The notes beneath the pieces were generated by a model. The model was not told the origin of the DNA. It did not search any database and saw only the letters and a program-made list of their open reading frames with translations. A DNA stretch of 64,000 nucleotides from Tridacna crocea (lineage: Eukaryota > Mollusca > Bivalvia > Cardiida > Cardiidae): contig OX031063.1 of NCBI GenBank assembly GCA_943736015.1, positions 41,742,672 through 41,806,671 on the forward strand. Reading direction: 5' to 3'. Positions 98 through 63,700 of this stretch are shown here, in pieces (position 1 is the stretch's first letter; every line of letters starts with the position of its first letter). The position numbers were made by a program, and so were the translations under genes.

Positions 98-1904
98 GTA
101 AAGTCAAAGACACTGCTGTTAGCAATAATCGAGATATTATCAGTCAAGTACAATCTGTAATTCATGGCGCTGTTCTACTTGGAGGATTAGATGAAGCACT
201 GTCAACAAATTGTATTGCAGCTATTAAAAATAAATCTCGCTGGCTATTTGTGTAATAAACATTTGTGTAACCCTAGTTTCAACCGAGACAAATCATATGC
301 ATCATGAAATTTACTGCCATAAAGCATAGCCTACATGTATTCTCTTTCTGAAAAAGAAGGTGGAAAGGAGTTGCTGGTATTATACTTACTCTCTTTTTTT
401 AATCTTTATTATGATAATCATTAGAATTTCACAGATTATCAAAAATGGCCTATATGAAAACAAACAGCTTGTTCAAGTGACAAGGAAACTCCTGTTGAAA
501 AGTTGTCTGGTTATGTATTCAGAATGCCCTAATCGGAGATTTCTATTTCAAAAATGCCATCTGGCGGAAGATAATGGTTTCAGGTGTTTTCAGGCCAGGC
601 AAACATTCTATTTCCAGGTATATTCACAGTACCGGTATCCGGTGTGTACTTGTTCCACTACTCGGTGAATACAGACGTGAAGGCTTATCAGTTGGTTGTC
701 AAACTCGTCCTGGACAATGTCAACATGTCTGATGGTACATCAGACCCTTTCCATGAACTCCAGGTCAGTGGCTTGCTCAATTCTCACTCTCTGCCATTCG
801 AAAAATAGAACATAACCTACACTTCGGTTAACCTACACATTATAAACTGCCTTTGATTGTCACATTGTGTATACTAGTACTTGGGTAACTTGGCAAATCT
901 CATTTAAAAACCATCTCGATTAGCCTATCAGGAATTGCATTAGATCTACTCTCAAAAAATTAAATTTCTATAGAACGAGACGAAGAATGTCTTAAAAGAG
1001 TCGATGAAAACGGACTTAGGACTTAGGACTTTATTATACTGCAAAGAAATTTCTCGTGATCTGATTGGAAAATATGCCCCGAACGTATATCTCATGTTCA
1101 CTGGCAAAACCCACGTAAAAGCAGTTTCCCTTTCGGGAGCCCGGTATACATGACTACACTATCAACACAACATCCAAAATGGCGGCGTCGATCAAGATTT
1201 ACGTCAAAATTATGCGCCAAGCTGCACGTTTTAACATGTATTGCCAAGGTTTCAGTGACGTCAGTTTCCAGTGACGTCAGTTTTCAATTAATTGGGGCAC
1301 TCAGAAGGGAAATTCTACTTTGTCAGCGTACTCGATTTTGTAAAAAAAAAAATAAATAAAATTCGCTTCGCAAACTTTGGAATGGCAAAACTTCACATTA
1401 TAATAAATTCGTTATGCGGTCAGGTGGCAGGGGACTCGGAAACTTGTTCACAGCTGAGGTGAATCATGTCGCGACCTCGCCTTCGGCTCGGAGCGACATG
1501 ATACAACAGCCGTGAATAAGTTTCCAAGTCCCTGCTACCTGACCGTACAAATGATAATGTGCAGGTTCTTTTCTAGTTCAGGTGATGAAATGTATAAATA
1601 CTTAAGGTCTGCAGCCCTTACTCTAATACTAAAATACGGAAGCTGCCGAGATAAGCCGAATAGCCTTTACGAAAAGGTCAATGTTATACTGACGAGTTAG
1701 GGGTCGTGATCCTTAACAACGGCTATTTTATTCGTATATTCTTGTTCACAATTGAAGGAGATACAAGGAGGTAACACGGTGGTATTCCGAGCCAATCAGG
1801 GACAATCTGTATGGCTGGCTGCCTATAACACCGGTGACACCATGGTGGATGGACGACAGGACTACAGATTTTCTACTTTCTCCGGTGTTCTCTTGTATGA
1901 ATAA
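1..1904 (+). CDS. C1q-domain-containing protein, 3' part (5' end outside window)
   Basis: Three exons join in phase: 1-97, 594-763 and 1758-1904 (the last may begin at 1761; both AGs are in frame). Together they encode a nearly complete C1q/TNF-like jelly-roll domain. Exon 1 gives the early strands (AYxT-like segment ending NDGGAYNTITG), exon 2 has FPGIFTVPVSGVYLFHYSV, the family hallmark, and exon 3 has GGNTVVFRANQGQSVWLAAY and ends FSGVLLYE-stop, the usual C-terminus. Donors are AG/GTAAAG and AG/GTCAGT. Bivalves carry hundreds of secreted C1q genes used as pattern-recognition lectins; that role here is inference. The signal peptide and any coiled coil would lie left of the window. An AATAAA overlaps the stop codon, too close to be sure it is the polyadenylation signal. 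Confidence 0.9.
594..763 (+). CDS. C1q gene exon, central strands
   Basis: Acceptor TTTTCAG at 587-593, donor GTCAGT at 764. Encodes the core motif FPGIFTVPVSGVYLFHY followed by a strand ending DPFHELQ. 170 nt, phases 1 to 0. Confidence 0.9.
764..1757 (+). other. C1q intron with a short inverted repeat
   Basis: Non-coding. 1405-1550 is an imperfect inverted repeat: arms around AGGTGGCAGGGGACTCGGAA and its complement near 1525-1548, with a GC-rich centre CCTCGCCTTCGGCTCGGAG. It looks like a decayed foldback element. No further coding potential seen. Confidence 0.5.
1758..1904 (+). CDS. C1q gene last exon
   Basis: Begins after TTGAAG (or 3 nt later after GGAG) and encodes the last strands with the conserved FSGVLLYE end and a double stop TAATAA. 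Confidence 0.88.
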   Translation, partial: EIQGGNTVVFRANQGQSVWLAAYNTGDTMVDGRQDYRFSTFSGVLLYE

Positions 1905-5717: not shown

Positions 5718-8700
5718 GTATCGAGTATATCTTAACAATCTCCTGCGATCAATTTGTCATCTTAACACAACTTTGAAAGCATTATTACAGCAAATTGTGC
5801 CGAAACGTATAAAATACGTATCAATACTCTCTTAAAATATACTAAAACCCTTTTTCACAGAGCATGGCTGGAATGTATTAAAAATCATTTCATATTTCAA
5901 GGATATTTTGGAAGGCTTGAGATGCAAATAGTATCAAGGGGGGGGGGAATAAGCTTTACATCTTCGGATAAGTTCACTGATAAGTTCACTGGCTGCCAAA
6001 ATATAAATGGCGTTAAAAACGGGATTAAGAAACTGTTGTCACAGGATTTTTTGATAAATGGTCTCAAAAACTTTCTATACGATAAAAATCATAACGAACA
6101 AACAACTGCACATTCTCATTGTATTTTACTATTTTTTCTCACAGAAAACGTTGCTTTCAACAAACCAAGCGTCCAAAGCTCGACATCAGTTGTTGGTATG
6201 ACGTCATTGGACGCCATGAAGGCGACAGATGGGCTACTCGACACATGCACTGGTACACAGCTATCGGAGAACAGTTGGTGGAGAGTAGACCTTGGAACCC
6301 AGCGATACATTGTGGGGCTAGCTATCCACCTACGGAAAAGCAAGTATTTGTTGATGTTTTCTTTTTTTCACTCAATGACAACACCAGTAGTTTAACTTGA
6401 AGTATAGATTCGCATCGATATCATGTGATGCTGGTCAGGGCTACATAATTTGGGTGAAGGAAGAGTAGGTGAGGCAACACCTCAATAAATATTATAGAAA
6501 GCTGCATTCAAAAGAGACTGTGACTATTTACGTTTATTCAAAATTCTATAGCATACCTTCTGTGTGCCATGTATAGAACTTTTGAGTATGAACAACAAAT
6601 ATCGTTGAAATTCATACATGTTTTTCTAAACACTCGTCTTATTAACTCGGCAGTGGAATTTGTCTTTCAAATCAGTCTACTTCGAAGAGGTTTTTGTTGA
6701 ATTTTATGGAGAAGAAATTGCTTAGTACGAGTAGCCAATTATTTTTCTTTTGTTACTTTTTTTGTAAACTTGTTCCTATTAATGAAATCTTAATTCATGT
6801 TTATTACAAAATTAATGCAGCTTCTCCTTTTAATTGAAAATGTCAGTGCTTATATTTTATTTACATGTTTTAGATGAAGCTTCGGGTATTCAACCAAGAA
6901 ATAATATCGTTATTTACATCCGTAATAGTACCGACGACACAGCTGAACGAATTCTTTGCTACCGCGAGACCGGAAGTCAGTCCAGTTATGACGTCACGTT
7001 AGAGATCACTTGTTTAGAACCCATGATTGGTCAACACGTAGAGATAAACGTCATTGAACGGTCGCAGCTGGAACTCTGTGAAGTACAGATTTATGGCGGT
7101 AAAATATTTTACGTGAAATACTAAGTATCCTTTAAAAAAGATTAAGTCGGATGGCCAAATGAATAAAGTTCATATTTACAGCCCGATCTATATATTCATT
7201 TTGTCTGCAGATATTTTTCAGTTGTGCTTGTCCCTCTTCGGGTTCATAATCAAAAGGAAATACTTTGAATGAAACAGAAGTCGTGAAGTCAAAACAGCTC
7301 TTCCAGATCATTGCTGTTCTAAAATAAAAAGAGCCATGCCTGGTTAAAGGGGATTTAACCCTTTCTCAAACAATCCCTGGTTTTCACGACCATGAGAAAG
7401 AAGCCTTCTGAAAACATCGTGGGAAAAGGAGAAAATGCTGGTAACCAGCATTTTCTCTTTTTCCCACAATGTTTTCTTCCCTTTCAAAAACAAATTCCAA
7501 CTTTTAAGTCACATTAGTTTTGTTGTCTGCAAATGCTTCAAAATTTGGACTTGTCGAAAATTATGTCTTTTGGTGAAGAGTTAATACATTTGTTAAAAAA
7601 AATCGACCCAGGTCAGCCTGTGCTAATGGTCAATTGTCTGTGAGTCCCTCTTATGTCAAATGGCTTTTAAACAAAATACACGTAGATGTGCAGTGTTCAT
7701 GGTTTTGAGACGGAGCGTCGGCCTTGTAACCATATGCTTCTGTGTTCGAGATCTGGGAGCGGTTGTCAACTTTGGCACTGTTCACTGGCCCACATACATG
7801 TATCCTGCGCGAATACTGGAGTATACTGGAGTATTTCCCGTGAAGCAGAATCGAAAGAGATTAGTATAATTCGTAAAAAATTGTTTCATAATCGATGTAA
7901 AGTAAATCTGTTTAAACTAAGGGACATGGATTTCATGGGTGCCAAATTATGTAATGGAACACTTGATATAATGCATCAGAGAGACTCATAGCGGCCAACC
8001 CTACCATCCATCGAACAGTGGTTGATAGTAATCCCGCCGATATATCTACCCCTTGCTTTGTAACAAGTTTTACACTTATATGCGTGGAATCATGAAAGTT
8101 TTTATTCGTGAAAAAAATAAATGTGAACTATGTGAACATGTTTGTTGACAGGGTTTGACACATTATTTCACTTACATGGACAGGTCGTGAACTAGCTCTG
8201 ATGAGATCAACCGATCAATCATCGTCCTTCTCCACCACACAGAGGTCAGAAGTTGCTGTCGATGGTATCACAGCGGACAACGACACGTTCACGTGTGCTC
8301 AGACCAGGCGATCACGTGATCCATGGTGGACCGTCGATCTAGGTCACATGTTCATGATACAGTCTATAGTCATATACAACCGTTTGGACACAGGTAAACA
8401 AGGTAACCTTGATGGCGGTGGATTGCGACACTAATAAAATTTTTGTCATGGATAGTATTTTTATCTTTATCTAATGGGTGTCCTTGATTTAGCTCTCGTG
8501 AAATGGCTGACTCAAACCGTAACCCTTTACCAAACGATCCCGGGCTTAACTAATCTAAGAAATAAAGACTTCTGAAAACATTGTAGGAACATGAGAAAAA
8601 GCTAGTGATCAGAATTGTCACCTTTCACTACACTATTTTCAACTTTTCGTTATTATCTCACTATTTGAGCCATTTGTCGTCCACAAATAGAATGGTTTGG

Positions 8701-19493: not shown

Positions 19494-19812
19494 TTAAAAG
19501 GGCATAGCCCGGTGGCAAAGTTGATGAAGTACACTGTTTGAATCTTATCGGGTTACAGAATGGACTCCCCAGCTCGACAAAAGTATTTTTTCGGTATTTT
19601 ATAGACGACGTTTATATGGGAAAGCAGTCAATGGCTTGAAAAAAAAACACCAATTGTGCAAAGTAATATGGTGAAGGATATTGTGGATTAATGCCCCTAG
19701 TCCCCGTTATAAAACAGATATTGTCGAAATCGGGTTTACTCCTCTCCCTTTCAACAATATTAAGCTAATTAAGTGAAATGAAACTTTTAAGTAGATAGTT
19801 AAAAACACACAT

Positions 19813-20041
19813 TTAACTCTTTACCAAACGACAATATTTTCGGCTTGCCCAAATCGAAAGCATTTGCAGACGACAAAATAAAAGTGACTGAAAATTTGAA
19901 GTTTGTTTTGTGAAGGGTAGTAAACATTGTGGGAAAAGGAGAAAATGCTGTTTATCAGCATTTTCTCCTTTTCCCACAATGTTTTCTAAAGGCTTCTTTC
20001 TCAGGGGCGTCAAAAGGAGGGATTGAGTGGTAATGGGTTAA
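19813..20041 (+). repeat. Family A element
   Basis: 229 bp, TTAA both ends; hairpin loop TGCTGTTTATCAGCA. Confidence 0.93.
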
Positions 20042-20185
20042 ATGGCCAAAAGATAGTTAGTGGGATAGAAAATATGTCCTCAAGGGATAGTTTAGATCTA
20101 CGATCAGACTGCGGATTCTGTGCAGTCTTATCTTGGTCTGCACCATCCGTAAAAGGTCTTTGAGTTGCGCATAAAAACCTAAAGC

Positions 20186-20405
20186 TTAACCCATTACCAC
20201 ACTATCTCTACTTTTGACGACCCTGAGAAAGAAGCCTTTAGAAAACATTGTGGAAAAAGGAGAAAATGTTGGTAACCAGCATTTTCTCCTTTTCCCACAA
20301 TGTTTTCTACCTTTCACAAAACTTTTCAGTCACTTTTATTTTGTCGTCTGCAAAATGCTTTCGATTTAGACAAACCTTATATTTTGTCGTTTGGTAATGG
20401 GTTAA
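20186..20405 (-). repeat. Family A element
   Basis: TTAACCCATTACCACACTAT to GGTAATGGGTTAA; full hairpin. Confidence 0.9.
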
Positions 20406-20479
20406 GTCAGATTTTCGCCGATGACTCACTAATTTTTTTTTTCGGGGGAGGAGGGGGATAGATCCACAAATGGGAGTAT

Positions 20480-20756: not shown

Positions 20757-21503
20757 ATGACGTCCTTTTTGGGCATTGGGTGTATGTCGGGCTCTTCCGT
20801 CGACGGACTGGATATTTGCTGCGTGGAATTTACGGGCGACATTCAGTCGGATTTGTGGGGATTTAGGATAAACGTAGCAGAAACGGTTGACTACCCAGAA
20901 ACATGGAAAGAAACGCTTACAAATGCACCTACCTTATCGGGGATTGACCTAATTAAATTACATGTGGATTATGGACATTTTATTGGTAAAACAGTGTCGG
21001 AATTTATATCAAAACACGAACTCGAGGACAAAGTACAGTTTATTTCTTCACATGGACATTCAGTTTTTCACCAACCGGAAAATGGGTTCACATTTCAACT
21101 GGGAGAAGGGGAAGTGACGTCCACGTATTTCCGGGTTCCGTTTATTTGTAACTTCCGGTCAAAAGATGTATGCATCGGAGGTGAAGGTGCACCTTTGGTG
21201 CCGTGTGGAGAACGTTTTCTGTTCAGAAACAATGACATATGTGTAAATCTTGGAGGTATTTCAAACATCGGAGTCAACGGAACTTCCGGTTATGATATCA
21301 GTCCATGTAACATCGTCCTGAATCGGCTTGCGTGTAGGCTAGATAAAAGCCTGCTCTTTGACAAAGATGGAGACATAGCGAGGCGAGGTGAAATTATTCC
21401 ACGTATGTTGGAAGAACTAGAAACTTTAGCATTTTATCAAAAGTCGCCACCAAAGTCGCTATGGAAAGAGTACATTGACAATCACATATTTCCGGTCTTC
21501 GAG
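20757..21503 (+). CDS. anmK-like: AnmK exon 1 (residues 1-249)
   Basis: Starts at the first ATG; no upstream in-frame ATG improves homology because GIGCMSGSS begins at residue 6. Read-through past 21503 runs 18 codons of unrelated sequence to a stop, so the donor GTTTGT is supported. Confidence 0.95.
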
Positions 21504-22620
21504 GTTTGTATTACATTTTTTCCTGTCTCTATCAAAGATGATTTTCTACTGTTGTCATGAATTGTGGCTTATCCCTTTTTTCATGTTATTTGAAAGAATT
21601 ATATTTCTTTAAACTTAACTTAGAATGATAATAATAGAAAATATAATAGCATTGCTGCTTCTGATGATGATATTACAATGAAATATTGAAATAATTTACG
21701 TTTGTCCATCTTTCCAATGTCTAACAACATATTACATGTATGTTATTATTGATATTTTACACCCTTTAACTTACAGCTTTCACAAGAATTGCATGGATCA
21801 AAGAGTGGACTTTTTTGTTCACCATTAATTTCTCGTCTTCAGACAAAAAATGCACATCTTTAGACAAAGACATTTTAACGGTTGTTCCAGGGCAAGACGT
21901 CGTAGAGCCCTATACTGTATAACGCATGAAATCTTCCAAGGATATGAACAGTTCAGGCTGACTTGAATTAAAATTCCTCGTCAAATAGGTAAATTTTCAT
22001 TGTGTCCAAAGACTATTCTACCTCACGAGTAAGTGAGTTGTTAGACTAAAAGGATTTCATGGATCCATAATTATATGGTCACGTGTTTGGAACAATGCAT
22101 GACGTAAATGCACGAAACACTCTTGCTTGAGCATGTCTCATCTTTCGGTTTGATTTCTTTTAATAATGCTCATGATTGGATCAATTGATAGATCAAAGGT
22201 CAATGATTTAAATATTTTCAGGGTGAAGGTTATCAATTAGAAGACATTCTACGAACTGCCACAGAACATATCGCCCTTCGTGTTGCAGACGCTTGTAGAA
22301 CAGAATTGGGTGCTCTCCAAAAACAGCCAATCCACAAACCTAACATATTGCTCACCGGTGGTGGAGCATTGAATAAATTTCTAGTCGAGAGGATTAAACT
22401 GCATCTCAGTGGTACCGAGTGCGAGTTTGAACAAGTTGACGGAATGACGATCAATTTTAAGGAGGCATTGATTTTTGCCTTTCTTGGTTTGCGCTGTCTT
22501 TTGGGAGAAGACAACGTGTTTTGTGACGTCACAGGGTCACGCGCTAACAGTATTTCCGGTTCCATTCATCGACCGTTGATGGTCGGTAAAATAAAACAAA
22601 TAAGCCTCTTAAGTCATTGA
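20757..22620 (+). CDS. anmK-like: Anhydro-N-acetylmuramic acid kinase (AnmK), bacterial-type, with one intron
   Basis: Exons 20757-21503 and 22222-22620 join in phase 0 (GAG/GTTTGT ... TTTTCAG/GGT) to give 381 aa, against ~370 for bacterial AnmK. The family phosphorylates 1,6-anhydro-MurNAc to MurNAc-6-phosphate in peptidoglycan recycling (ASKHA fold). Visible motifs: MSGSSVDGLD (10-19, phosphate loop), SSHGHSV (97-103), FRSKDVCIGGEGAPLVP (133-149), NLGGISNIG (164-172), GYDISPCN (178-185, D180 matching the catalytic Asp), FDKDGDIARRG (201-211), PPKSLWKEY (231-239), LLTGGGALN (292-300) and VTGSRANSISGSI (352-364). No signal peptide, so cytosolic. The form DISPCNIVLN is nearer Bacteroidetes than proteobacterial enzymes (from memory). 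AATAAA at 22717. Substrate in the animal is unknown. Confidence 0.95.
21504..22221 (+). other. AnmK intron with family B fragment
   Basis: 718 bp intron. 22015-22165 has the family B right half (GATTTCATGGATCCATAATT and the CTTGCTTGAGCATG end). Confidence 0.7.
22222..22620 (+). CDS. anmK-like: AnmK exon 2 (residues 250-381)
   Basis: Acceptor ATATTTTCAG. It opens GEGYQLEDILRTATEHIA, the family's helix before the second nucleotide-binding half, and ends QISLLSH-stop. Confidence 0.95.
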   Translation, partial: GEGYQLEDILRTATEHIALRVADACRTELGALQKQPIHKPNILLTGGGALNKFLVERIKLHLSGTECEFEQVDGMTINFKEALIFAFLGLRCLLGEDNVFCDVTGSRANSISGSIHRPLMVGKIKQISLLSH

Positions 22621-23450
22621 AAGGAAAACAGATAGTTGGGTTTATTCTTTGCTTTGTTGATACATGTGGAAAATTTGATTTGCCTAAATGTAAGGCATTG
22701 ATTTTTGTAGACGAAAAATAAAATATAACTCGGGGAGTGGAAATTGCCTATAGAATGGAAGAAAAAAATGTGGGGGAAAAAAAGAAAATGATGACATTAT
22801 AGGCCTATTCCTATGGACATAGAAACCGACCGAATGAGACGGGCATGGCAACACACCTTTTTTTTTCTTAATGAGGGTCATATTAGTGCATCTTACAGCT
22901 GCATTATACCGAGTTCAGAATGTGCTGAATATGTAGGAAAAATCGCTTTCATTTTGGGTGAAGCATATGAAATTAATTATTAGATTTCCAAATTTAACAA
23001 AAAGGGTCATTGCCTATTTCATTAATTTGCTATAGTATGAGTCCAGGCCCCGTGGTATCGATTAGCGGTAGCACGCTTGGAAATAGTGCGTTGTCTGCGC
23101 ATGTCATATTCTTCGAAGATTCGACCGGTCTTATATGACGCATCACCTATTCCCCGATTCTAGGGAAAAGTAGGGCTTATACTGAAGCTGAACCCAAGCC
23201 TGTAGGGACTGTTTTAATAAATAACCGGTGCATAGGTTACCTGCAAGCTGATCATAACTGAATAAATCGCACCAGATAGCGTTTTACTGTGTAAACGTGA
23301 AATATAAAGTAACAGTTGTCGTTTTGAAAATTAGTCCGCTTATTGTATCCAGAAGCACAAGCGGTTAAAGTACATTAGAGACGGTAAGTAGCTCTAAGAC
23401 GTTCATGCCTTGCTCAGGCAAAGAGGGGGGGGGGGGGGGGGGAAAGGGGG
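22621..23450. other. Intergenic, weak repeats only
   Basis: 22700-22880 may be a very old family A copy (AATGTGGGGGAAAAAAAGAA). 23040-23180 resembles a tRNA-like SINE head (GTGGTATCGATTAGCGGTAG). No exon supported. A poly-G run ends at 23442. Confidence 0.4.
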
Positions 23451-23676: not shown

Positions 23677-24060
23677 TGCATTCGTCCATAATGCCATAGA
23701 TCAAGTATGCTATCAAACAATTATGGATTCATCAAATCCGTTTTGTCTAACAACCGACTCATTAGGTAGACTGGTCCTTTCACATGCAGAAAATTGATCA
23801 ATAGGAAATAGTTACGACCCCTATCACCCTGCGCGGACTGCGCATACTGAAACAGGTCGATGCATTTTACAGAAGCATAAACCTCTTCACAGGGCATGGC
23901 TCTTACATGTTATATGGGGTTTGTGTGGTTATTTTACTTTCATAATCTACTGGCGTATTTAAAAAAAAAAGGGAAATAAAAAAAAAAAACACTACAAGAG
24001 ATAAATAAAAGATTTCGGTGATCAATTTTACCTCTAGCTCCTAAAAAAGAAAATTCAAAC

Positions 24061-24290
24061 TTAACTCTTTACCAAACGATAAAATTTGGACCGGTCCAAA
24101 CTGAAAGCACTTGCAAACAATAAAATAAACATAGCTCAAAAATTGAAATTGATTTCCGGTATGGTAGAAAACATTGTGGGAAAAGGAGAAAATGCTGGTT
24201 ACCAGCATTTTCTCCTTTTTCAACAATGTTTTCAGAAGGCTTCCTTCTCAGGGTTGTGAAAACCAGGGATATTGTTTTGTAAAGGGTAAA
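24061..24290 (+). repeat. Family A element
   Basis: TTAACTCTTTACCAAACGAT left, hairpin 24168-24230 with one mismatched end. Confidence 0.85.
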
Positions 24291-24654
24291 TCATGACGAC
24301 AGCTTATTCCCAATTCATGCCTTTCCTAGTTTCATTTGATACTGGGCTAGGGCCCTGCAATGCCTTGTCCAGGGACACTACCGGAAAAGCCACCACTACC
24401 AGCTGGGATAAAATCCAGAACCTTTGGATTACAAATTGATCATTATTATCACTAAGCTTCAGAACATCCGGTCATCCATCAACGTGAGATTTGTGTTCTA
24501 GTGACCAACAGCTAGGTCACTGGATGATTGCAACTAGAATTATAGCAAGACAAAACACAGACAACCCTTCCCCTCCTACTCGGTTTACTCACACACATAG
24601 GTTGTCTTGTCACTTGGTCAGGAAAAACTCAAAGGGCAATAACTCCTGTAACAG

Positions 24655-24884
24655 TTAACCCTTTACCACACAATCCCAACTTTTAACCGCCCTTTGAAAA
24701 ATGCCTTTGGAAAACAGTGTGGAAATAACAGAAAATGCTGGTAAGCAGCAATTTCTCCTTTTCCCACAATGTTTTCTACCCTTCACAAAACAAATTTCAA
24801 ATCTTCATTCACTTTTATTTTGTCGTTTGCAAATGCTTCTGATTTGGACAAGCCTAAAATATTGTCGTTTGGGAATGAGCCAAC
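24655..24884 (-). repeat. Family A element
   Basis: TTAACCCTTTACCACACAAT left; hairpin loop CTGGTAAGCAGCA; right TTAA eroded. Confidence 0.82.
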
Positions 24885-26390
24885 CATGAGGGTGCCCTGG
24901 CCTCTGTAGTTTGTTTGAAGGTTTATACTACAATGCCATTTCAGCAATACTGACTGAAAACTGCGGATAAGGCCATAAACTTGTGCCAAAAATGGATAGA
25001 AAGACAGAAGGAGTACCGGGTTCCTGTATACCCCACACTTCATTGGTGGGAAATATTAAAACAAATCAAAACAGCTTGAATCTCAATAATTTAATACAAA
25101 ATTGTTCAAAACTCTGGCAAAATATAAACAAATAACTTTTATTGAAATAGAAATATAAATAAATATGAATATGGCTGTATGAAAAATAAAAAATCAGAAT
25201 TACACAACATATCTGTATATGTATGAACAAATAGCTGGGCAGACATCAATGCATTCTTTGACATAATACGAAATTCTCTAACGAATGAATGATTAGCGTT
25301 TTAAGGCCCGTCGACAACTTAGGTCATATTGAGCGCACTTATTAGTAAATAATAATGCGAGGTGAAAATAACATACATGTGCAACAACATAAGACAAACA
25401 TGATAAATGAGGAATGGACGAAACACAAAATAATGCCCCATTTGTCGCCTTTTACGACATGTTATCACTTTTGTTACGCCAGATGAAATGGTAGATGTGA
25501 CGATCGCGGGACTGCAGTGGTTTATTCTTATACCCCGATTAAACCACACGGGGTCCCACAGGCTAACTGATTCCCATTCCAAACCCTATTTACATCGAGA
25601 AAAAAATATAGGATTTGGAATAAGAACTACCCAGCCTGCTGCAATCCTACGAATTACGAGGAAAGCAGCCGTTTGTTTCTAATTTTAGTCGCCTTCCACG
25701 ACATGCCATAGAGAAAGGCCGAGGTCCTATTCTATACAGTAAAAAAAACTCGGGACCCCACGGGGAGAAATTCTCCAAAACTGTCAACATGTAAACATTT
25801 ATTGAAACATAAACAAACATGAACATGGCTGTATGAAAAACGACAGATCTATACAAAATAGCTGCGTTTGAACAAACAAATTGGAGGACATCAATGCAGT
25901 TTTGTCCTTAAAACATTTTTTTTTCTTTTGCTTCCAACCTATAGTATGAGCTACAACATTGGTATTAAAGAAGATGAGAATTTTGGACTCGCATGAATAA
26001 CAAACTACCATTTTTCAAAACCTCTACTGTAGGGTTGACTTTACTAACGCCCTCTACCCACCCAAAATAATTCTGCCACCAAAGTTGTAAAGCACTGTAT
26101 CACTATCATACGTACACATTCATACACATGTAACTGATTTTTTCGCTAGATCGGAATTCCCTTTACAACTAAATAGATGGGTAAAACAGATGCAATGACA
26201 CCAAAGGATTTCTTCTATGCTTTACAACAAAATCAATGGTGATGTTTCACCTCTCTCCCCATTGGCAATTTGTGCCTCTCTGTGCATATGAATATTTTAA
26301 TTCTGGCTGTCCCTATGTTGTATGCCGTTACTGAGTCCCTGTATCTCTCACTGACTCTCACGGGCTGTGATTGTTTTAACAAGAACGACC
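24885..26390. other. Intergenic region with an old internal duplication
   Basis: 25125-25258 and 25787-25912 are diverged direct copies (TTTATTGAAA, AACATGGCTGTATGAAAAA, GACATCAATGCA in the same order). A second pair, GTCGCC TTTT/TTCC ACGACATG, lies at 25446 and 25690. On the - strand both long copies carry AATAAA, so this may be the CEP44 3' UTR end and a duplicate of it. No coding exon seen. Confidence 0.45.
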
Positions 26391-26710: not shown

Positions 26711-29700
26711 CTACAAAAAGAAAACTGTGCCTTTATTCTGGTGTATAACCCTTTGATTTCTGATTTCTTACCGTCATTAAAAGTTGGGATTGTGTAGTAA
26801 GGGGTTAATGAGGGCTGGAGAGTGATACCAGCATGGCATCTCGATATGTGCCCCTAAGGCTATAGCCCAAGACACGATTTTCTATATTTATTATGTCTTT
26901 GCCAGTTTTGTGATTCTATCATTGCTTCTAGATATATTGATCTATCTCCTAACAATTGACAGACTGATTCAGCCATTTTTTTTTTTTCAAACAAGATGTT
27001 TTGAAAATGTTAATTAGGGAGCAAGGATTGTTTTGCTATAAATTTAGAACAAATTTCTGGTCAATAGAAGGATATATGATATTGGCCTGTCACCCCTGTG
27101 TATCTGCCTTTGTATGACCTACATATCTCAACTATCATCCCACTGTATCTGTCCTTGTATGACATACAGATCTCCACAAATCACACTGATATTACACCAT
27201 TTTCCGTAGAAAATATTACTATATACAGTAACGAATGCAATAAGGAAAATAATGTTCTAGTAACTTTCTTGTCCTTGTATTTGATTCAAGTTGAGAGCAA
27301 AAATTTGATATCACAATACCTCATTTCCTACATTATTATATCCCCGCAAAATGAATGTTTTGGGGGGGTATACTGGAATCAGCCTGTCTGTCTGTCTGTC
27401 TTTCTGTCCATCCGTATGTTCGTCTGTACAAAATACATATACTGTCAAAGCACTGGCGGAGGTATAAAGTCACATTCAGTGACAGATCTAGTTTTATCTC
27501 TTGTGTGCTATATTCTATCCACCTGCACAGCATGTATTTATAGACATATAATAAAGATACATATGTTGCCATTAAATGCAACTAGAATGATGGGATGTCT
27601 TTGGCAGGCTAAAAAATATTCTGGAAAAAACGTAAATGCCAATAAATATTCTTTTCTGCTTTATCCACAATGTGTCAAAAAGGCATTTTGCTTTGAGCTG
27701 TGAAAATACAAGATCATTTGGTACAGATTTTACTCTTTTACAAACGACAAAATATTAGACTGGTCCAAATTAAAAGCATTTGCAAAATGTGACTCAATGT
27801 GACTCAAAAACTGAAATTTTTTCTGGGAGGGCAGAAAACATAGTGGGAAAAGGAGGAAATGCTGGTTACAAGCATTTTCTCCTTTTCCCATGATGTTTCC
27901 AAAATACTTGTTTTTCAGGGTTGTGAAATCCAGGGATTGTTTGGGAAAGGGTTAATCTAAAAAAAAAAACTTACATTTTTTCTATTCTTGAGGCAGCATC
28001 AAGAAAACTGGCCTCTGGTTTGACTTCTACTGCACGAGGGGTTGGAGTACTTGATCTTCTTGCATCTTCCTCTGTGGCCTGTGACAAGAATGTGTCTTCA
28101 TTGGCTGAAAATATCTCCCCATCAACACCATTTGTGGCCTTACGGATCGGAGAGTAGTTCAATGATAGATCAACAGGTTCTTTTGAGAGATTTTTCACTC
28201 TTGGATCTGCAAGGAACTTCAGCTGTGTTGCTGTAAAGCGCAATACAATGTAGTTTTTTCTTTTTATTGAACTCATTTCCTTCCTAACGTAGTAGACCCG
28301 TAATAGAAAACAGCTATTTCCACAATAATATTATCTTACAAATTTTGCTAAGATTAAAAAACAGTGTTATTGTACTGCTTTAACCAAGCCACTTTTCCCT
28401 TTTTGTCTTTTCTAGAATTATCATTTATAAATCTAAAACCTCTATATTTTCATTACAAAGAGAGATAGTAATTACCTCCCTTTTCTAGAAACTAACAAAA
28501 GTACCTACAAATAAATTCAACATAGGCATAGAGAAATTTCTGGTCCATTAAAAATGTGCAAAAGTATCATACCTGTATAAATCCGCATTTATCAACTATC
28601 AAAAAAAACTTTATGCAATGCAGCACTAGAGGTATTAGGGGTTTACCACCTTAAAAGAAAAAAGTTATTGGAATCAGAAACTTGTAAAAGATCATCCAAC
28701 ACATGTCTTGGTCAAATGATTGCGAGGATTCAACCTCACAAACCCTCAGGCTTCTAGCCTGTATAGTCCCATATCCATCTTTGAAATTCAAAATTTATCA
28801 ATTGTGCTCCTCAAAGACACAGACCATTTCTCTGAAGAGAAAAATGTGCAAATGCTAGTAACTGATATTTTCTACTTTTCCAACAATATTTTACAAATCC
28901 TCTTCATAACATAAATATTTTGTACAAAGTAAAAACAACTTTACTTACAAAATGATGAGCCTTGGTCATTGATAGTCACACTTGGGTTGACCACAGAAAG
29001 ATCTCTCTCCATCGTCTTGTTTGATTGCAGAGGAACCTTACTTATACTGTCAACCTAGAAAGCAATACAAATACATGCATTAAATCGGGCTCTCAGTATT
29101 TGAAGAGCTAAGCCCTGGTAGTTCAGTCGGTGATGTCCAGAACTTGAGAACAGGAGGTCATGGGTTGGGTCCCTGGCTTGGTCAAATTCTTTCTGAGGTT
29201 TAACCCTTTACCAAGCAATCCCTGGTTTTTACGACCCACAGATAGAAGCCTTTTGAAAACATTGTGGGAAAAGGAGACAATGCTGGTAACCAGCATTGTC
29301 TCCTTTTCCAAAAATGTTTTCTGCCCTGCTGGAAACAAATTTCAATTACTGAGTTACGTTTATTTTGTGGCCCGCAAGTGCTTTCAGTTTGGACCAGTCT
29401 AAAATTTTGTTGTTTGGGAAAGGGTTAATGATAGTCATTGTGACGGGATTCACTAGTCTCTCATCCTGGGACCATTGTTTTTACCATAGTTAGGTAGGAG
29501 AGCAGCCAGTGGATTGGAAAGAAAAACTGTGTGAAGAAGTGGTAAAATGGACTCGAGGAAAGCATGGATAGGTGCACTGGCTCCCTTGATATAACCAAAA
29601 TAACTTTGAAAATGGCTTTAACCCTTTCCCACACAAGAAATTTTGGAGCAGTCCAAATTCAAAATACAAAATTAATGACAAATTCAGTATAGGTACAAAT

Positions 29701-53159: not shown

Positions 53160-54762
53160 TTATTTCATCACTTTTGCATACAAATCGTTCCTGTCGTAAG
53201 CTGAGTATGTTTGAACACCATTTTGTTTTGAGGATGTGTTGTTTCCATAGTATAGAACGTAGCCATCCGAGGATTCCGAGTTCTGACGTATTCCAATGAC
53301 GTTATTCAAAACGTGACCATTGTGAATTGCGTTCATTTCATATGACGTAGGCCTAGTATCATCGTCTAGAATGTTACGCCGAGATGTAAAATCATTGAGC
53401 TGTTTTGTAGAAGAAGAACTGCTTCTCCTATGCAGTTTGTCAATCGGGGATTCTTGTGGCAAAATGAAGACGTCATCGTCGAAAGATACCGAGTGAGGTC
53501 GGGAAATTCCGTTCTGTTTCGCCGGATGATCGGAAACTCTTCTGTCAAATGTTGAATATGCACTCGTGGTATTCGTCTTTACCTACATCAGGAACAGTTT
53601 AAGATAAAAATGTCACATGACTAACATTCACTGGTGAGAACATTTGATTTTCAGCGCTGTTAATTTAGACCGTCCACAGCCTACTAATATTTGCCAACAA
53701 AAAATGCCAAACAATACACCTTTAGAGCCCAAGTTTAAGATCCATTATTTCTCTTCCAAACCCTATGTTTTGCCGGTTCTAATGAATACCTACAACATAG
53801 GTCTAAGCGGAGAAAAATTGATATTTTCAATGTTGAAATCAAAATCACTCCCTCTGCACCTTTTCTTTTCTTCAGAAAAAAAATCTCATTAATCTCCCAT
53901 TCATTTTACATCAATTATGGGTATCGAATGCCCGAAATACCACATTATATCTAGCAGACGCCTCCTACATGTATATTTGTGATGCAACTAATCACTTTTG
54001 AAAACATTGCACCAAGGGGAAAATATTTAAATGTAAAATCTTTAACTTCTGTTGACAACCGTACTTTACAAAAATGTTACCGAAGTCTTCAAGTGGGATT
54101 ATTTAACCCTTTCCCAAATAGCAAATTTTAGACCAGACCAAATTCAAAGCATTTTGCAGATGACAAATTAACAGTTGCTAAAAAGATGATTTTTCTATAC
54201 GACAGGGTAGAAAACATTGTGGGAAAAGGAGAAAATGCTGGTTACCAGCATTTTCTCCTTTTCCCAAAATGTTTTCAAAAGGCTTCCATTCCTGACCCGT
54301 AAAAACCGGGGATTGTTTGGGAAAGGGTTAAAAACTTGTGTAACCTTTAACTGTACTTTAACACGAGCAGCCCGATCTTGAATCTTCACTGTCCCATAAG
54401 GAGATGTTTTCCTCCCATAGACATGATTTGAAACAAGATTATTCTGGTTTTAAGTATCGGCCTTAAGGTTGCATTTCATTTGTATAGTATAAGGGTTAAT
54501 GTCTTTGTAAGTGTATTAAAAATTGACTTTTCATCATCATCAACATCAGTATCATCATTGTTCTCATCATCATCATCATCATCATGGTTATTAATATTTT
54601 CTTGACAGAGAAGATTTTGCAAATATTTACCGATTCTCTAAAGCCTCCTGAATAGTCTGATGAATCGTACTCGGACCCTTTCCTTGTACGTTTAGAGAAT
54701 GAACTCTCGGTCAACCTTAACTGACTCCGTCTTCGACTATGACGGTCGTAGGCGTTTTGTAC
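53160..54762 (-). CDS. aGPCR exons: cytoplasmic tail
   Basis: 54762-54631 (VQNAYDRHSRRRSQLRLTES ... GGFRES) and last exon 53582-53160, 140 residues plus stop. Both acceptors are followed by GTA (TAG/GTAAAG at 53582), resembling a recursive splice site. Confidence 0.87.
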
Positions 54763-57700
54763 CTGCAAGTGTCAAGTTCAGTATGAACATATGTTCTTTT
54801 CTGGATCCGGTGTAATGCAGAAAAATGACCCCCATTACAAAATGACCCGTGGGTCATTTCTCGACGTAGAATAATGACCCATGGGTCATTTCTCTACGTC
54901 GAGAAATGACCCATGAGTCATTTCTCGACGTAGAATAATGACCCGGGTCATTTTTCTACGTCGAAAAATGACCCACGGGTCATTCCTCTACGTCGAGAAA
55001 TGACCCGGGGTCATTTTGTAATGGGGGTCATTTTTCTGCATTACACCGGCTTCAAATAAACAAAAATGGTCTCTTACTTTGCTCAATAAAAGGCCACTTT
55101 CAGAAAGAAATTGAGTTTCATTTAAGATGCATTTCACTAATAATAACAGACTTCATGTCACGATTTTTCGGTTATTTAACGAGAAATATTGGTAGAATAT
55201 TGTTTGATATTTCATGTTAACTACCAGTGAAAAACAAAATTGTGTTGTACATTGACGTACCCCCACGCCCCCAAAGAAGGAGGGAGGGGGTTAGAAGAAT
55301 GAAAGAAGAATGAAATAAGTAGACTATTTGTTTTTGCCGGTGGAAGATCCAAATTTTATGTCATCGAGGTAACATAATCGGTAATATTATCACGAGTGGA
55401 GCAGCCACTCGTGAAAATATTACTGATTATGTTCACCCGATGACATAAATTCTTTCACCGTAAAAAAATACCCTTTATTTCGTAACCTTTTCAAATCCTG
55501 AGTTGATACAATTTTTCAGACTAAGTTTAGCAAAATCATCCGACTTTCCTCATTCAACAGATTGAAGCCAACTTCTTTGTTAAGTCTGGAACGTTGCATC
55601 GACTGAGCATTTTATAGACCCTCACTCTAGTCAGATATTGTCAGTGACAAACGTTCCAAATAACAATATCAGACTGGAGTGATAAGAAGCCTTTAGAAAA
55701 CATTGTGGGAATAGGAGAAAATGCTGGTTACCAGCATTTTCTCCTTTTCCCACAATGTTTTCTACCCTTCACAAGACAAATTTCAATTTTTCAGTCACTT
55801 TTATTTTGTCGTCTGCAAATGCTTTCGATTTGGACAAGCCTAAAATTTTGTCGTTTGGTAATGAGTTAAACCCCTTTCTTACCAGAGCGTGGCTAACCTA
55901 ATTATAAGTTTCAGTTTAAAGAAAATAGATAATGTCATAGTTGGCATTGGCTCATACTTACGTCAACACTCAACAGGCAATGAAATACAAAGAAAAAGAC
56001 CCCCTGAAAAAAGAAACAAAAAATATCTTTAAAAAAGATAAACAGCGTTAGAGATACTTAAGCATGAATATTGTAACCCTTTTGCTCGATATGATGTAAA
56101 ATAATGAAAAGTAGCCTTACGAGCACTTGCCTGCTTTTCCTCACAGTTTTTCATCTTGTTGAAAAGTAGCATTTTGTCATTGGGTTACGCTTATGAAAAT
56201 ATTTAATTTCCAAGGAGGACCAAAAAAAGTATCATTCTAGTAGTAGCAACGGTTGTAAGTGCTGGTTTCATAAACTGGGAAGAAAGTATGGCAGCAGGGA
56301 CCGTCGAATAAACATATGCATATTTCTGACCAATCGCAAATTACCATATATTCGTTCTGTATCAGTACCATGAAGTGGGTCAGCTGGGCCGAAAAAAAAT
56401 AATACACTGTAAAAGTCTTAAGCCAAGTGCATATCGCTTTGTAATTTCACTCTTTACCACATACTCCCGAGTCTTAACTACCAAAGAAGGCATAGGAAAA
56501 CATAACCCCGAATCTAAACTACCAAAGAAGGCATAGGAAAAGAGGAAAATGCTGGAAACCAGCATTTTTTTTATTTCCTACAATGATTTTTACCTTTCCG
56601 GAAACAAATTAAAATGTTTGATTCACATTTACTTTGTCCTCTGTAAATGTTTTTGGCTTTGGACATGTCTAAAGTATTGTCGTTTTGATAAAGAATTTAA
56701 CATTTAGGCTGCTAGGCGCGACTCACTGACCCTTTGTGGACAGTGTAGATTGAGATCAGATTGCACAGAACGTGTAGTCTGATCTTGAATCTGCGCTATC
56801 CTGTATGGAGATGTTGTTCCTACATATAAAATCCGTTTGGTTTGGTTTTTATTATAGGCTTGAAAGTTTCACTTCTTCTATTCAGCAGGTTGAGCTTAAA
56901 AATATTAAATGAGACTGGTAAGATCTATTGAAGAACTTTGTAATAGCGTACTACACATACCTGCATTGAGTTAAAGAATGTGAATAGATATGTGAAAATG
57001 AGTGTTTCCTTGTCGGTGATGGAGAGATAGCCAAACACCCATGTGATTCCCAATAACGGAAGGAGAACACACGCAGCCTTTAAACCACTTCTGAAAAAGC
57101 GATTCAAATCCAATTTACCCTAAACATGCAATGTTTGGAATGTACCAAATAGAACCTGACATGATATTCATGAGTAAAAGTATATTTGGTGTACTCTGAC
57201 CTTAGGTCAATACCGTCCATTTGTTGCAAGCCTGTAAGATTAAAAATTATTCATTGTTTCAGTGGGTTAAACTTTTTCGCTATCGAAAGAGATAGAGTTC
57301 AAATATTTGGAACTGAAAGAGACCAATCTTACAAGCTTTTTTTCCTATGCAAACATTAATTTAAAATTACTTAAAATAGATGTTATGGATCCATAGTTAT
57401 GCGTCAGCTTGTCTGGTATAAGCATCAGGAATGCCTTAAATCTCCCCTTGCCTGAGCATAGCATATGACTTTATTTTCTCAACGTTTTCTGTGGAATACT
57501 GCAGAATGCAAGTACCCATCTGCAAAAGGTAATGAAATAAGCTCAATGTTGTGTTAAAGAAAGTTAACAAAAAGTAAAGTCAACATACTTGACTGAGGAG
57601 CGTTCCTCAACAGCGGACTTAGATCCTTTCTCCATAGATTTAAACATGATCCGTATCACCACGATTAGCACGACAGAGTTGATCTGCAATCACACAATGA

Positions 57701-60700
57701 AACTAATGTATGACTTAATCTAAAAACCAAAAATAAAACAAACAAATGTCTTAATATAAAACTATACTTAGACAAAAGCAAACAAATAAAACGCCATGAT
57801 TTAATCCGTTAAATTATAATTTAAAACAAACCAATTCGTTATTCTATAAAAACACAAGATCAAGAAAAAAATACACTCATACACATACACGCTTTGATTT
57901 TGTCTGCAACAAAGCAATAAAACAAAGCTATTGTGGTACTCAAAAACTAAGTCATAAAGAAGAACGAATTTGGTGTTCTGAAACTACACGATGATGATAA
58001 CCTAAAGTGGTGATCTTAAACCACCCAATACAGACAAACAGATGTAGTGATTTGAAACCACATCATAGAAACAAACATATGAGGTGATCTGAATTCATAC
58101 AGTAAAGACAAACGTATGTGGTGATCTGAAACTGCACAATGAGGACCAACATATAAATGATCTGAAACCACACAAACACGAAAAACAAACGTGGTGATCT
58201 GAAATCACAAAACAAAGACAAACCAATTTAGTGATCTGAAACTACGTGAAAAAAGACAACCCTTTGTGGTGAGCTAAAAACAAAAAACACAAACCATTGT
58301 GGTGATCTGAAACCACGCGAAAAAGACAAACCAATATGGTGATCTAAAACCACACAAAAAAGACAAATCTATATATTGATCTGAAACAACAACAACAACA
58401 ACAACAACAAAAACCAATGTGATGATCTGAAACTACACAATAAAGGACAAACTGATGCGGTGATCTGAAACCACACAATAAAGACAAGCCTATATGGTGA
58501 TCTGAAACAACACAATAAAGACAAATATATGTGTAATATGAAATTAGACAATAATACAAACTTATCTGGTGATCTGAAACCGCACGAAAAAGACGAACAT
58601 ATATGGTGATCTGACATGTAGCGCTAAACTTTGACTGAAGTTATTTACTCATGCACGGGTGCTCTTAAAAGCATTTAATACAAATTTGAGTCAAAAGGTT
58701 ATAAACTGAGAGAGAATGATGCAAGTTTTTACATACCACAATAACGAGACTAACTGCAGGTATAAAAGCTACTAAAAGGACTTTGTGTGTGAGCCAGCAT
58801 CTGTAACGAAAAAACGATAATTCAATATTTCAAAAATCTATAGTTGATACCTTTCAGATTATTGTAAGAGATTATTGTAAGTATTGGTATACATGTATTA
58901 CCATTCCTCATTGAGTCCAATCGTCCTGTCTCTGCGAAACATGTGCATGCTTTGTATTCGCATCATTATAGATCACTTATTGTCAAGTCTATAAGCCTTT
59001 CAAAGGATTTCAGTAGAATGCGTCTTTTCCTTTGGTTGGAAGAAAAACTATTAAAGTTATAAAACGAAACAAAACAAAAAAAAAGCACAAAAAAGTTTCG
59101 AGAGTAAGGCTTATCTAGTACCCACAAATCGACAAAAGATGAAGATATTAATAATGTATCTTTTCGAATTGGAAAATACTCACACTGCGCCAGTTCCGTA
59201 GTCATCATGAAAAATCCCAGCTGATATTCCAACTATTACAAAAGGTACCCCTTGAAATAAACGGAAAAAAGAAGGAAATTTCACTGTGCACTTTCTTTAT
59301 AACTTCTGACCTCAGGGCTAAAATTGAATAATCTTAGTAGGGGTCCAATGGATAAAGCTTCACACGAAATTTGGCAGCCTTATGCCCTAAGCTTAAGAAC
59401 TAGAAACCTTTAAGAATTTTCACTACATAAGCCTATGTGAAATTTGTGACCCTCGGGATGGAGCATTTTTGACCAAAGACAAGGAAATATCAGTTTAAAC
59501 GATTTTCACTATTTTTCAGTTTTGTTGCCACGGTAACCAGAGTTCTTACCAGAATCAAATTCGTTGGCAAAGTTATGAAGAGGAACATTCTGCGATATTC
59601 ATCAAAATCAATAATGGATGGGTATTTCAAGAGAAGAAATGAAACAAAACGCACGGACAGAAGGACGCATTGAAGTACGAATGTACGACGGACACAGGGC
59701 TATGACATAAGGCTTGCTTGTCTTCGGACAGTGGAGCTAAAATTACAAGCTAATCAAACAAAAAATGTTGTAAGAGAGACACGAATCTCTGTCCATATAT
59801 TATGAGCCACTTTTTTACCGAATGAGCAATACTTGCTGTGTAACAACCGACTGTGTTCAAAACGTACGTGTAAATCGACATGAGGTAGCAGCTACCCCAC
59901 TCTTGACAAATCTGGAGACAATTTACAGAAAAAAATGATTTCCATTCTTCCACTTTTGAAGATTATCAGTTTTGAAAGATTGCTTACAATTTCCGACACA
60001 TAACCTAGAATCGAACAGCTTTACTTGCCTTGTTTACAGCTCAAAACATAATTCACAACAAAGAAATGTTTACCCCATCCTATGAGGACATATTTCTTCA
60101 TGTTTGACTGTGATTTAAACACTTTCACCAGAACGAGGTACAGATGAGCGCCCTCTACTAGCATCCAGCAAAACATGGCCACCAATACGTAATGTAGACA
60201 AATTGCCAGCACTTTGCATACAACCTGAAAGTGAGATATTTTCAACTTTTACCGAATAATCTCGTGTTATGCGACACTGACGAAGATGGCTTATGAAAAT
60301 ACTGTGGGACAAGGAAAAAATGCTGAGCACTGTCTCATTTCAACACAATGTTTTCTACGCTTCGGCATCAAATTTGTTATTTTGAGCTACATCTGCTTTG
60401 TAGCTCAAAGTTTATTTACTGTAAATGTGCATATGTGAAAAATCACCGTTTGGCCTGCTAAAGTGTTATGCATGGTACTAATGAAGAATTGACACTAATG
60501 TGTCTATTGGCGCACTTACCGCGGTTTAAGAACTGAAACACTTTTGGAAATTTCATTGTACACAAAAAAGACAGAAGAACAGATCAGATCGCAGAAATAA
60601 CATTATGGTCATTTTTATATAAGTCATGCGTTTTGAAAAAAGGACATAACGCATCTGCAAAAAGTATCAATTCCGGTCAGCATGCGCAGTCCGAGAAGGC

Positions 60701-63700
60701 TTACCTGGGTCGAAAGTTTTTGTTATGGTCAATTTTCTGTATGTCAAAAGACCAATGTAAGTCATAGTTCAGTTGATTGTTAGACAAAAAAAATATGAAT
60801 CCATATTTATGCTATGACATGCTTGGTGTAATTCATCACGGAAATGCACTAAACTCCCTTGTGCCTGAATATGGCCCATATCTGTGTACAACGGCAAACC
60901 AGTTTAGCTTTAAAATGGTAGTTTGCTGTAAAACTTACTTTATTTTCCGTTCTGTCAATGCCGACCAGAAAGAAAACTTGTACAAGTATTATAGTCAGTG
61001 CTAATTGCTCGTGAATCCGAACTCTCTGGTTTTTCAGTCTGGAACAAAAGATAACAGTGCAGTTTTGAAATTTCTTTACAAGACGACAAACTTTTTTATT
61101 CGTTTATATTGAAGGCATCTGTAGAAGACCAATAAAATATAGGTCGAAGGATAGCACTGCATTTATTTTTGAAAGGGTAATAGGTATTATATTAAAGGAG
61201 GAAATGAAAATCATAATGATAAATAATAAGCATTTTCTCTTTCTTCAATCATGTTCCCAAAATCTTGCTAAATTGAAGTCGAGAAAATGTCGACAAACAT
61301 CACTTGTAGCCAAAGTCAGATACAGACAGTACAAGTTTAATGAGTCGTTCAACAAAACATAGAAATAGTTATACATATGTTTCATAAAAACGCTTTTTAA
61401 AGTTTTCCCGTGCTTTTGTCTTTATCGCTTTGTTGCCTTTTAATTTTACATTCTGAATATACTTATTGAAAATTTAAATTTATACTGGTTAAAAATAAGC
61501 TATAAACATGCCTGAAGAATTCAAATACCACGATTGAAATACAACAACCAAGAATCGAGAGAGCACCGCCTCCGTATGATAAATAGGTTAATATCTTTGC
61601 ATCAAAATCGTCTATAGCAGTCTGCAAAATAGATAATAATAATTATAACAATAATAATAATAATAATAACAGTCAGCAGAAAGAGGATTCTTATTAAAGT
61701 GTCTGTCCATATTTGACTTATGAGACAACTTTGTTTGGCAGGTTTACTCCCTTTTAGAAGATGTGCATTAACATGTAATTAACAATTGGCAACATTTACT
61801 TTTCCTAGAAAGATTCTGCAGGCAACATAATACTTTCTTATCCCTTAATCAAACAGTGCTGGTGTTTTAACGACCCTCCATCCCTCAAAATGCTCGCTAT
61901 TAATAGCTCCACAAATGTCCTTATCAGGAATTTCAGTCCTTTGATTTATTTCTTTCAAATTCTTAACTACAAATACCGTATTATTAATGTATCTAACTAA
62001 ATCATTGCCCCCCTGAAACAAAAATAGAGTAGAAAGACACCTTTGACAGCATTTTTATACGTTATGTATGATCCATGCTCTGACGATGATGTCCATGATA
62101 TATCAGAGATGTATGATACCATGCAAGTCATCACTATATGGCCTGCTTCACGCGGAAAGGGGCATTCGGACATTTGCGTAAAGTGTCGTCTCGGACCAGC
62201 CTGCGCAGTCCGCGCAGGCTGATCCGAGACGGCACTTTACAACTACATTAGATTGTGTGCTACAGTAGACTTGTGCGAAACAGAAAATTAAATAAAAACG
62301 GAAAGTGTCGTTTCGGATTAGCCTGCGCAGACTGCCCAGGCTGATCCTAGACGACACTTTACGCAAATGTCCGAATGTCCCTTTTCGCGTGTTGCAGGCC
62401 ATATTATGAATCTATAAAATCCATTACGTATAACAACTGACTGAACCTATGGGATAGATCGATCCTTTAATACACAAAATATTGACCAATAGCAAAATGT
62501 TTCGACTCAGGTCCGCCTGCGTGAACTGCGCTGGCTGACCTGGGTCTAGGCTTGTTGCAGATACGTAAAGCCCCATTTTCACAGAGCAAAAGTCATATAT
62601 AAAATCAAGAAGAAACGAGATTCAATACATGGATACATAAAAGAAATGTACTACAGGAAAACTTACAAAGTTTTCAAAAGTGCTCTTCTGCAAGAGCGGA
62701 AAAAAGTATACGATGTTTCTAGATCCGAATATGTCACTACCGACCTCGCACCGAGACCAAGTGCTTCAAGTTATAGCTTGCGAGATCAAGAGTATTTGTG
62801 TTCAAAACTCGGTTCGGCACAGACTTTTTCCCAAAGAATTTAAATAAGTCATTGGTCTACGATTCAATCCGTTCTCACTACCAAACATAGTATCTGTTAT
62901 TCGACCTTTATATCGAACCAAAAGCATCAAGTAGCATATCCGGGCATGTACTCATGCACCTTTCCAAACAGTATACCTAGTTTAATTCTAAACTTTTTAT
63001 TTAAAAAAAAGAAACACGATTTCTGATTGGGTAAAAGACCAAAAACTGTGTCCATTTGAAATTAAGACGACTCATGTGAAGTACAAAGGGATATCTTACA
63101 GAATGTTTGTAAATAGGGCTGTGAGACTAATTCTGGGTCTGTTTTCACAAAAGAAACTCTTTAGAAAAGTTTTGGTCTTATTCTCAAGAAATTTCTAACT
63201 TTGAACGTAAAACAATTTCTGATCACAAGTTAAACAAACCTCTACGTCATAAATGTCCATAAGAACAGCAAAGTTTGTGAGATGGTTGCAGTAGCAAACA
63301 GTGATATTCTCGTCACTTTCGACTTCACTTCTTATACAACCAGAGTGCGACCACCGGTCAGTTTTGTTCCTGTTAAAATGAACATTCTATATAGAGAATA
63401 TTAAACTGGGTGTGATATTAAAAGTCAGTCATTGGAATGGGGGAGTAATGTGGTTGAAAAAAGGACGAGTTTTTAACCCCTTCCCAAACGACAAACTTTT
63501 GGACTAGACTAAATTGAAAGCATTTGCAGACGACAATTCAAGTATTGCTGAAAAGATGATTTCTGTCTATGATAGGGTAGAAAACATTGTGGGAAAGGGA
63601 GAAAATGCTGGTTACCAGCATTTTCTCCTTTTCCCACAATGTTTTCAAAAGGCTACTATTCCAGACCCGTAAAAACCAGGGATTGTTTGGGAAAGGGTTA

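Follow-up and report, generated by a model that had tools for sequence, protein, structure and literature searches.

An intron-split AnmK gene on the forward strand

The window, i.e. the whole 64-kb stretch of Tridacna crocea DNA that was analysed, spans 41.74-41.81 Mb of contig C8, in an assembly of 1.05 Gb and 31 contigs. It carries a two-exon gene of the AnmK family, flanked by exons of animal genes and by repeats (positions are those of the window):

575..1901, forward strand: C1q-like exons, host neighbour (23.6 and 17.2 bits against a Pfam cut-off of 23.7; singly below it)
5766..8431, forward strand: F5/8 type C (fucolectin-like) exons, host neighbour (E 1e-6 and 5.2e-9)
beyond the F5/8 exons to ~14.6 kb: cysteine-rich EGF-like ORFs, recognised by eye
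19802..20415: MITE of ~230 bp, two inverted copies upstream of AnmK
20757..21503, forward strand: AnmK exon 1, residues 1-249 (own-genome Pfam match 1.2e-37), with the phosphate loop MSGSSVDGLD, SHGHSVFHQP, GG.GAPLVP, NLGGISN and the catalytic D180
21504..22221, forward strand: phase-0 intron, GT..AG, 718 bp
21990..22146, approximate limits: dispersed host repeat inside the intron, found on many contigs
22222..22620, forward strand: AnmK exon 2, residues 250-381 and stop codon (own-genome Pfam match 3.4e-7), with GGGA and EA..FA motifs
22717..22722, forward strand: AATAAA, a possible polyadenylation signal starting 97 bases past the stop codon
23442..23677: MITE copy downstream of AnmK, with more at 24042-24293 and 24651-24885
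56928..63386, reverse strand: adhesion-GPCR-like exons (GPS, 7tm_2), host neighbour (E 1.8e-12 and 3.6e-9)

Joined in frame, exons 1 and 2 encode an AnmK of 381 residues. The join is in register with the bacterial homologues, and since the 14 bacterial rows aligned across it are continuous there, the intron stands at a site of added sequence. Its G+C content is 32% vs 43% for the exons, and it contains stop codons in 3 of 3 frames. The transcript is predicted to be spliced at 21503/22222; beyond its GT the splice donor is weak (GTTTGT), which we count against the interpretation proposed below. The original prediction had described this same gene from the letters alone, and its coordinates, exon ends, 381-residue frame, spliceosomal-type intron and catalytic D180 are all as it gave them.

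Residence in the host chromosome

When the AnmK model was run against all six frames of the assembly, this gene was the sole match, in two exons, ~41.76 Mb into contig C8. Ten neighbouring ORFs were compared with Pfam, of which four scored above the cut-off, two (the C1q-like exons) below it, and four had no match; neither of the two EGF-like ORFs tried matched a Pfam family. The minus strand also has long open frames resembling host exons at 53163-53582 and 27974-28330, the former possibly being the adhesion-GPCR gene's tail.

Repeats detected within the window itself make up ~30% of its length. The MITE of ~230 bp has inner palindromic arms of ~33 bases and ends like TTAACYCWTTACCA, and is seen between 18988 and 24885 as well as throughout the window. 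Allowing at most 3 mismatches, 61 matches to its 21-base core occur in the 64 kb, against 0 in 100 shuffles; because the core is palindromic, it is often counted twice per element. Inside the intron, the stretch 21990-22221 has at least 40 matches across the clam genome, counting itself (of 461 candidates, 40 were scored), and the 39 other scored copies, 72-90% identical to it, are spread over many contigs.

Contamination was considered and rejected: it is very unlikely because animal genes and host repeats flank AnmK and a dispersed host repeat lies within its intron. A caution comes from the mite Oppiella, where AnmK, according to the available portion of the report, lay in contaminating Acinetobacter contigs (PMC12507336); that case too concerns AnmK in an animal assembly, but the clam copy differs by its intron and its surrounding host DNA, and the caution does not fit the clam locus. 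Of the features that mark a horizontally acquired animal gene, a position in a host chromosome, host neighbours and an intron are found here. The animal genome, the MITEs on both sides, the repeat within the intron and the residence of the gene in an animal chromosome had each been proposed beforehand, and all are borne out, the first by adhesion-GPCR, C1q-like and i-type lysozyme exons, the others by the ~230-bp copies upstream and downstream, by the intron repeat, and by the sole assembly match among host neighbours.

A Bacteroidota-type AnmK

AnmK (PF03702) is the only Pfam family listed for the protein, over residues 7-365 (E 1.3e-53; 182.8 bits vs a cut-off of 24). Among 14 NCBIfam models, NF007144 is the best at 377 bits, the next one reaching 235. 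The clam protein misses the equivalog cut-off of this model (436 bits) by 59 bits, which counts against our main reading; NF007144 is also the best model for 3 of 3 Bacteroidota rows tried, one of which likewise lies under the cut-off (396.8 bits).

A pattern scan of 84,980 bacterial and archaeal species, made with six short query peptides and thus biased to close relatives, gave 34 relatives, all from Bacteroidota by their titles. In viral contigs scanned for AnmK relatives, one stretch fits a pattern and none encodes a relative. The gene is present in 104 of the 148 Bacteroidota genomes sampled, and from those 104 we read the 30 with the highest scores (canonical, 327-374 bits) and 20 with low scores (divergent, 185-248 bits). 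Bacteroidota have two distinct AnmK types, the canonical one (mostly FDTGPGN) and the divergent one (YDI/FDV.P.N), with one match per genome where found.

In a 63-row tree, the clam AnmK groups with 49 Bacteroidota rows of the divergent type with 100/100 support, apart from 13 canonical rows, and a faster 82-row tree agrees. The motif style is common to the clam and this Bacteroidota AnmK (NF007144, PRK09585.2-3 type), which reads SHGH..FHQPENGF and YDI.P.N or FDV.P.N, the clam having YDISPCN where canonical AnmK mostly has FDTGPGN. Identity to Bacteroidota AnmK is at most 45%, and the clam copy departs from it in being intron-split, in an animal chromosome, and 59 bits under the equivalog cut-off; against canonical AnmK, identity is ~28% (median over 40 canonical or other rows). 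Judged by the best-matching model and the 100/100 grouping, the source of the clam AnmK is of Bacteroidota type, and the Bacteroidetes-like donor that had been suggested from the style of the catalytic motif is supported as to type.

The clam AnmK is drawn inside the Bacteroidota group (first fork 93/89), with no close sister resolved, and the alternative tree, in which the 49 Bacteroidota rows form a clade without it, is not rejected (p-AU 0.233). Its end branch measures 1.25 vs a median of 0.48. With a best identity of 45%, this long branch points to an old transfer or to a true donor that is unsampled.

Older eukaryotic inheritance, or passage via another eukaryote rather than a single direct bacterial transfer, would also fit the non-rejected alternative and the long clam branch, in trees whose only eukaryotic sequence is that of the clam. 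The available parts of three papers mention AnmK for other eukaryotes: among the bacterial-wall-degrading enzymes of Naegleria (PMC9928731), and in the fungi Ophiostoma (PMC4632067) and Aspergillus (PMC8762651). Like the clam, these organisms make no peptidoglycan and have AnmK annotated, the likeness being one of annotation only, between different lineages. Such a route is set against the 100/100 grouping with Bacteroidota-type AnmK and against the fungal levoglucosan kinase, which is farther from the clam protein by sequence than the nearest AnmK, and we hold it to be unlikely.

Proposed activity and a possibly missing MurQ step

AnmK acts on 1,6-anhydro-MurNAc, whose 1,6-anhydro ring it opens and whose O6 it phosphorylates; in bacteria, MurQ is the enzyme that follows. 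We think it fairly probable that the clam carries a resident AnmK, the only copy found, which was gained long ago by bivalve ancestors from a Bacteroidota-type source and would work as a cytosolic kinase. The gene would be spliced and its protein made in the cytosol, a location suggested because no leader stands ahead of the first motif. The substrate would be 1,6-anhydro-MurNAc derived from bacteria, either digested or symbiotic; by opening the 1,6-anhydro ring and placing phosphate onto O6 in an ATP-dependent manner, AnmK would yield MurNAc-6-phosphate, which would then be trapped or cleared, or else passed to an unrecognised enzyme.

An exon-by-exon search of the clam assembly with the MurQ model (TIGR00274) gave one match, at 33.2 bits vs a cut-off of 302, its open stretch containing a stop; the same search found matches in 12 of 14 control genomes, and it could overlook a MurQ gene broken into many short exons. 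This lone weak match, the only candidate for a bacterial-type MurQ in the clam genome, was rejected as such, being the GKRP gene, which covers ~26 kb or more of contig C4 (8735489-8761605). As read from its exons, GKRP carries Thr at the position of the VECPPTF glutamate of Salinivibrio MurQ, and the QE..ED glutamate is kept. We take both of these MurQ glutamates to be catalytic, MurQ presumably needing the two. Thus, where a functional MurQ would be sought, the clam genome offers a score under the cut-off, with the first glutamate replaced and the second kept. With GKRP as the only MurQ relative found, the clam may lack the classical step after AnmK, and its processing of the wall sugar may end with MurNAc-6-phosphate. 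As no active MurQ was found, the use of the kinase may lie in trapping or clearing the sugar, or in feeding a yet unrecognised enzyme; unless another enzyme takes it up, MurNAc-6-phosphate would be a dead end serving trapping, clearance or signalling, which departs from the earlier recycling picture.

Complete salvage would run further, from AnmK to MurNAc-6-phosphate, then by a host etherase to GlcNAc-6-phosphate and D-lactate, with the amino-sugar pathway using both. The host genome does contain wall-degrading families, whose lysozyme and amidase members also favour our main reading. There are two exon matches to i-type lysozyme, the exon compared with the PDB being closest to 2dqa (1.5e-30), then 3ab6 and 4pj2 (1.8e-27), all three of which are presumably clam proteins; two matches to phage-type lysozyme lie ~12.6 kb apart on contig C18 (9784896-9797910), and amidase_2 and GH3 have three and five exon matches, respectively. 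GH3 was considered for NagZ candidates, and the two inspected read SDM and SDE at the motif, with no assignment made. The presence of GKRP, a MurQ relative with the second glutamate, also goes in the direction of salvage. Against it stand the sole MurQ-model match, sub-cut-off and in GKRP, and the Thr at the first glutamate position; GKRP as the only MurQ relative found is counted against a complete recycling route, which we regard as unlikely.

Substrate and conservation

The same chemistry could act on a different 1,6-anhydro sugar, as in the levoglucosan kinase of the fungus Lipomyces (PDB 4zxz, 4zlu), a eukaryotic enzyme of the same family as the clam AnmK (1.5e-26) that uses another substrate. 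This enzyme is PDB match no. 2 by sequence and no. 1 with an AlphaFold model of exon 1, and animals produce no anhydro-MurNAc themselves. Note that the model covers 249 of the 381 residues and is poor (pLDDT 70.9, pTM 0.60, with residues 138-183, which hold D180, below 50); it matches 24 PDB entries at E ≤ 0.001, each an AnmK or a levoglucosan kinase, though with TM by query of 0.52-0.57 and rmsd of 7.3-9.5 Å. The long branch also means that substrate specificity may have moved, which we count against our main reading. By sequence, however, the clam protein is nearer to AnmK (3cqy, 5.9e-31), and it keeps H105, present in all 55 Bacteroidota and 43 other AnmK rows, where levoglucosan kinase has Ser by an alignment that places this residue next to a gap. 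A switch to another anhydro sugar thus appears quite improbable.

A protein kept for something other than kinase activity, or a gene in decay, might account for two changes at conserved columns, T102S and A178G. These are the only changes among 49 columns in which ≥95% of 55 Bacteroidota rows agree on the residue (47 kept). Leaving out each bacterial row in turn and scoring it likewise gives shares down to 0.939, and the clam, at 0.959, is inside their range. Across the family, the clam keeps 43 of 44 columns conserved at ≥90% in both the 55 Bacteroidota and 40 other rows, and 41 of 42, including D180 and H105, when all 43 usable other rows are taken with the 55; these 41 residues are shared with canonical AnmK (E. 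coli, P. aeruginosa; PDB 3qbx and 4mo5 with anhMurNAc). Set against loss of function are this bacteria-like level of conservation and the 381-codon open frame with its catalytic Asp and phosphate loop, and we judge decay to be very doubtful.

The catalytic motifs are thus intact, as had been claimed for the phosphate loop and D180. Residues held over so long a branch speak for lasting constraint on the clam AnmK, and on these grounds we infer that it is domesticated.

Finally, it is highly unlikely that MurNAc-6-phosphate, perhaps unbreakable in this animal, serves as a signal by binding the MurQ-derived sugar-phosphate pocket of GKRP, which is without the first catalytic glutamate, tying the digestion or presence of bacteria to hexokinase control; if it did, an AnmK derived from bacteria would supply the ligand of an old animal regulator that is itself of bacterial-enzyme descent.

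Relation to known systems

Animals have gained wall-acting genes from bacteria and phages as antibacterial weapons, such as the phage-type lysozymes of bivalves, as far as the accessible text of PMC5303276 goes. The same text reports these lysozymes for Heterodonta and Palaeoheterodonta; in the oyster Crassostrea gigas none was found. With two matches to this family in the genome studied here, and an i-type lysozyme exon nearest to presumed clam proteins, the host is probably a heteroconch bivalve. The phage-type lysozymes resemble the clam AnmK in being horizontally acquired wall-acting genes that have gained introns, and they differ in that they kill bacteria, come from phages and are no sugar kinases (PMC5303276, same portion).

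A literature search pairing the name of the kinase with molluscs found no paper, and among the matches listed for eukaryotes, horizontal gene transfer or invertebrates, none concerns an animal AnmK gene by its title. Some invertebrate database entries are named AnmK-like. Bacterial wall enzymes gained by animals are therefore a known kind, and the clam AnmK seems to be undescribed within the literature searched.

The case for a resident gene is well supported, and the predicted function can be tested by an enzyme assay. If an animal keeps a kinase, apparently cytosolic, for a sugar made by bacteria alone, this would imply that its cells take in and process wall sugars. As no active MurQ was found, the fate of the AnmK product becomes a concrete question.

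Genes beside anmK in bacteria

The neighbours of Bacteroidota-type anmK were inspected as a guide to function (10 ORFs from 7 loci). They comprise glutamate dehydrogenase (3), acyl-CoA dehydrogenase (2), an M23 peptidase, a C69 peptidase, a Mur ligase, a PLP enzyme and a member of the bile-acid symporter family. This context was set aside as too uninformative, the M23 peptidase and the Mur ligase being its sole hints of the wall; that wall recycling is barely visible in it counts against our main reading. On plasmids of the haloarchaea Haladaptatus and Halorussus, organisms that make no murein, an annotated AnmK lies beside a GNAT acetyltransferase.
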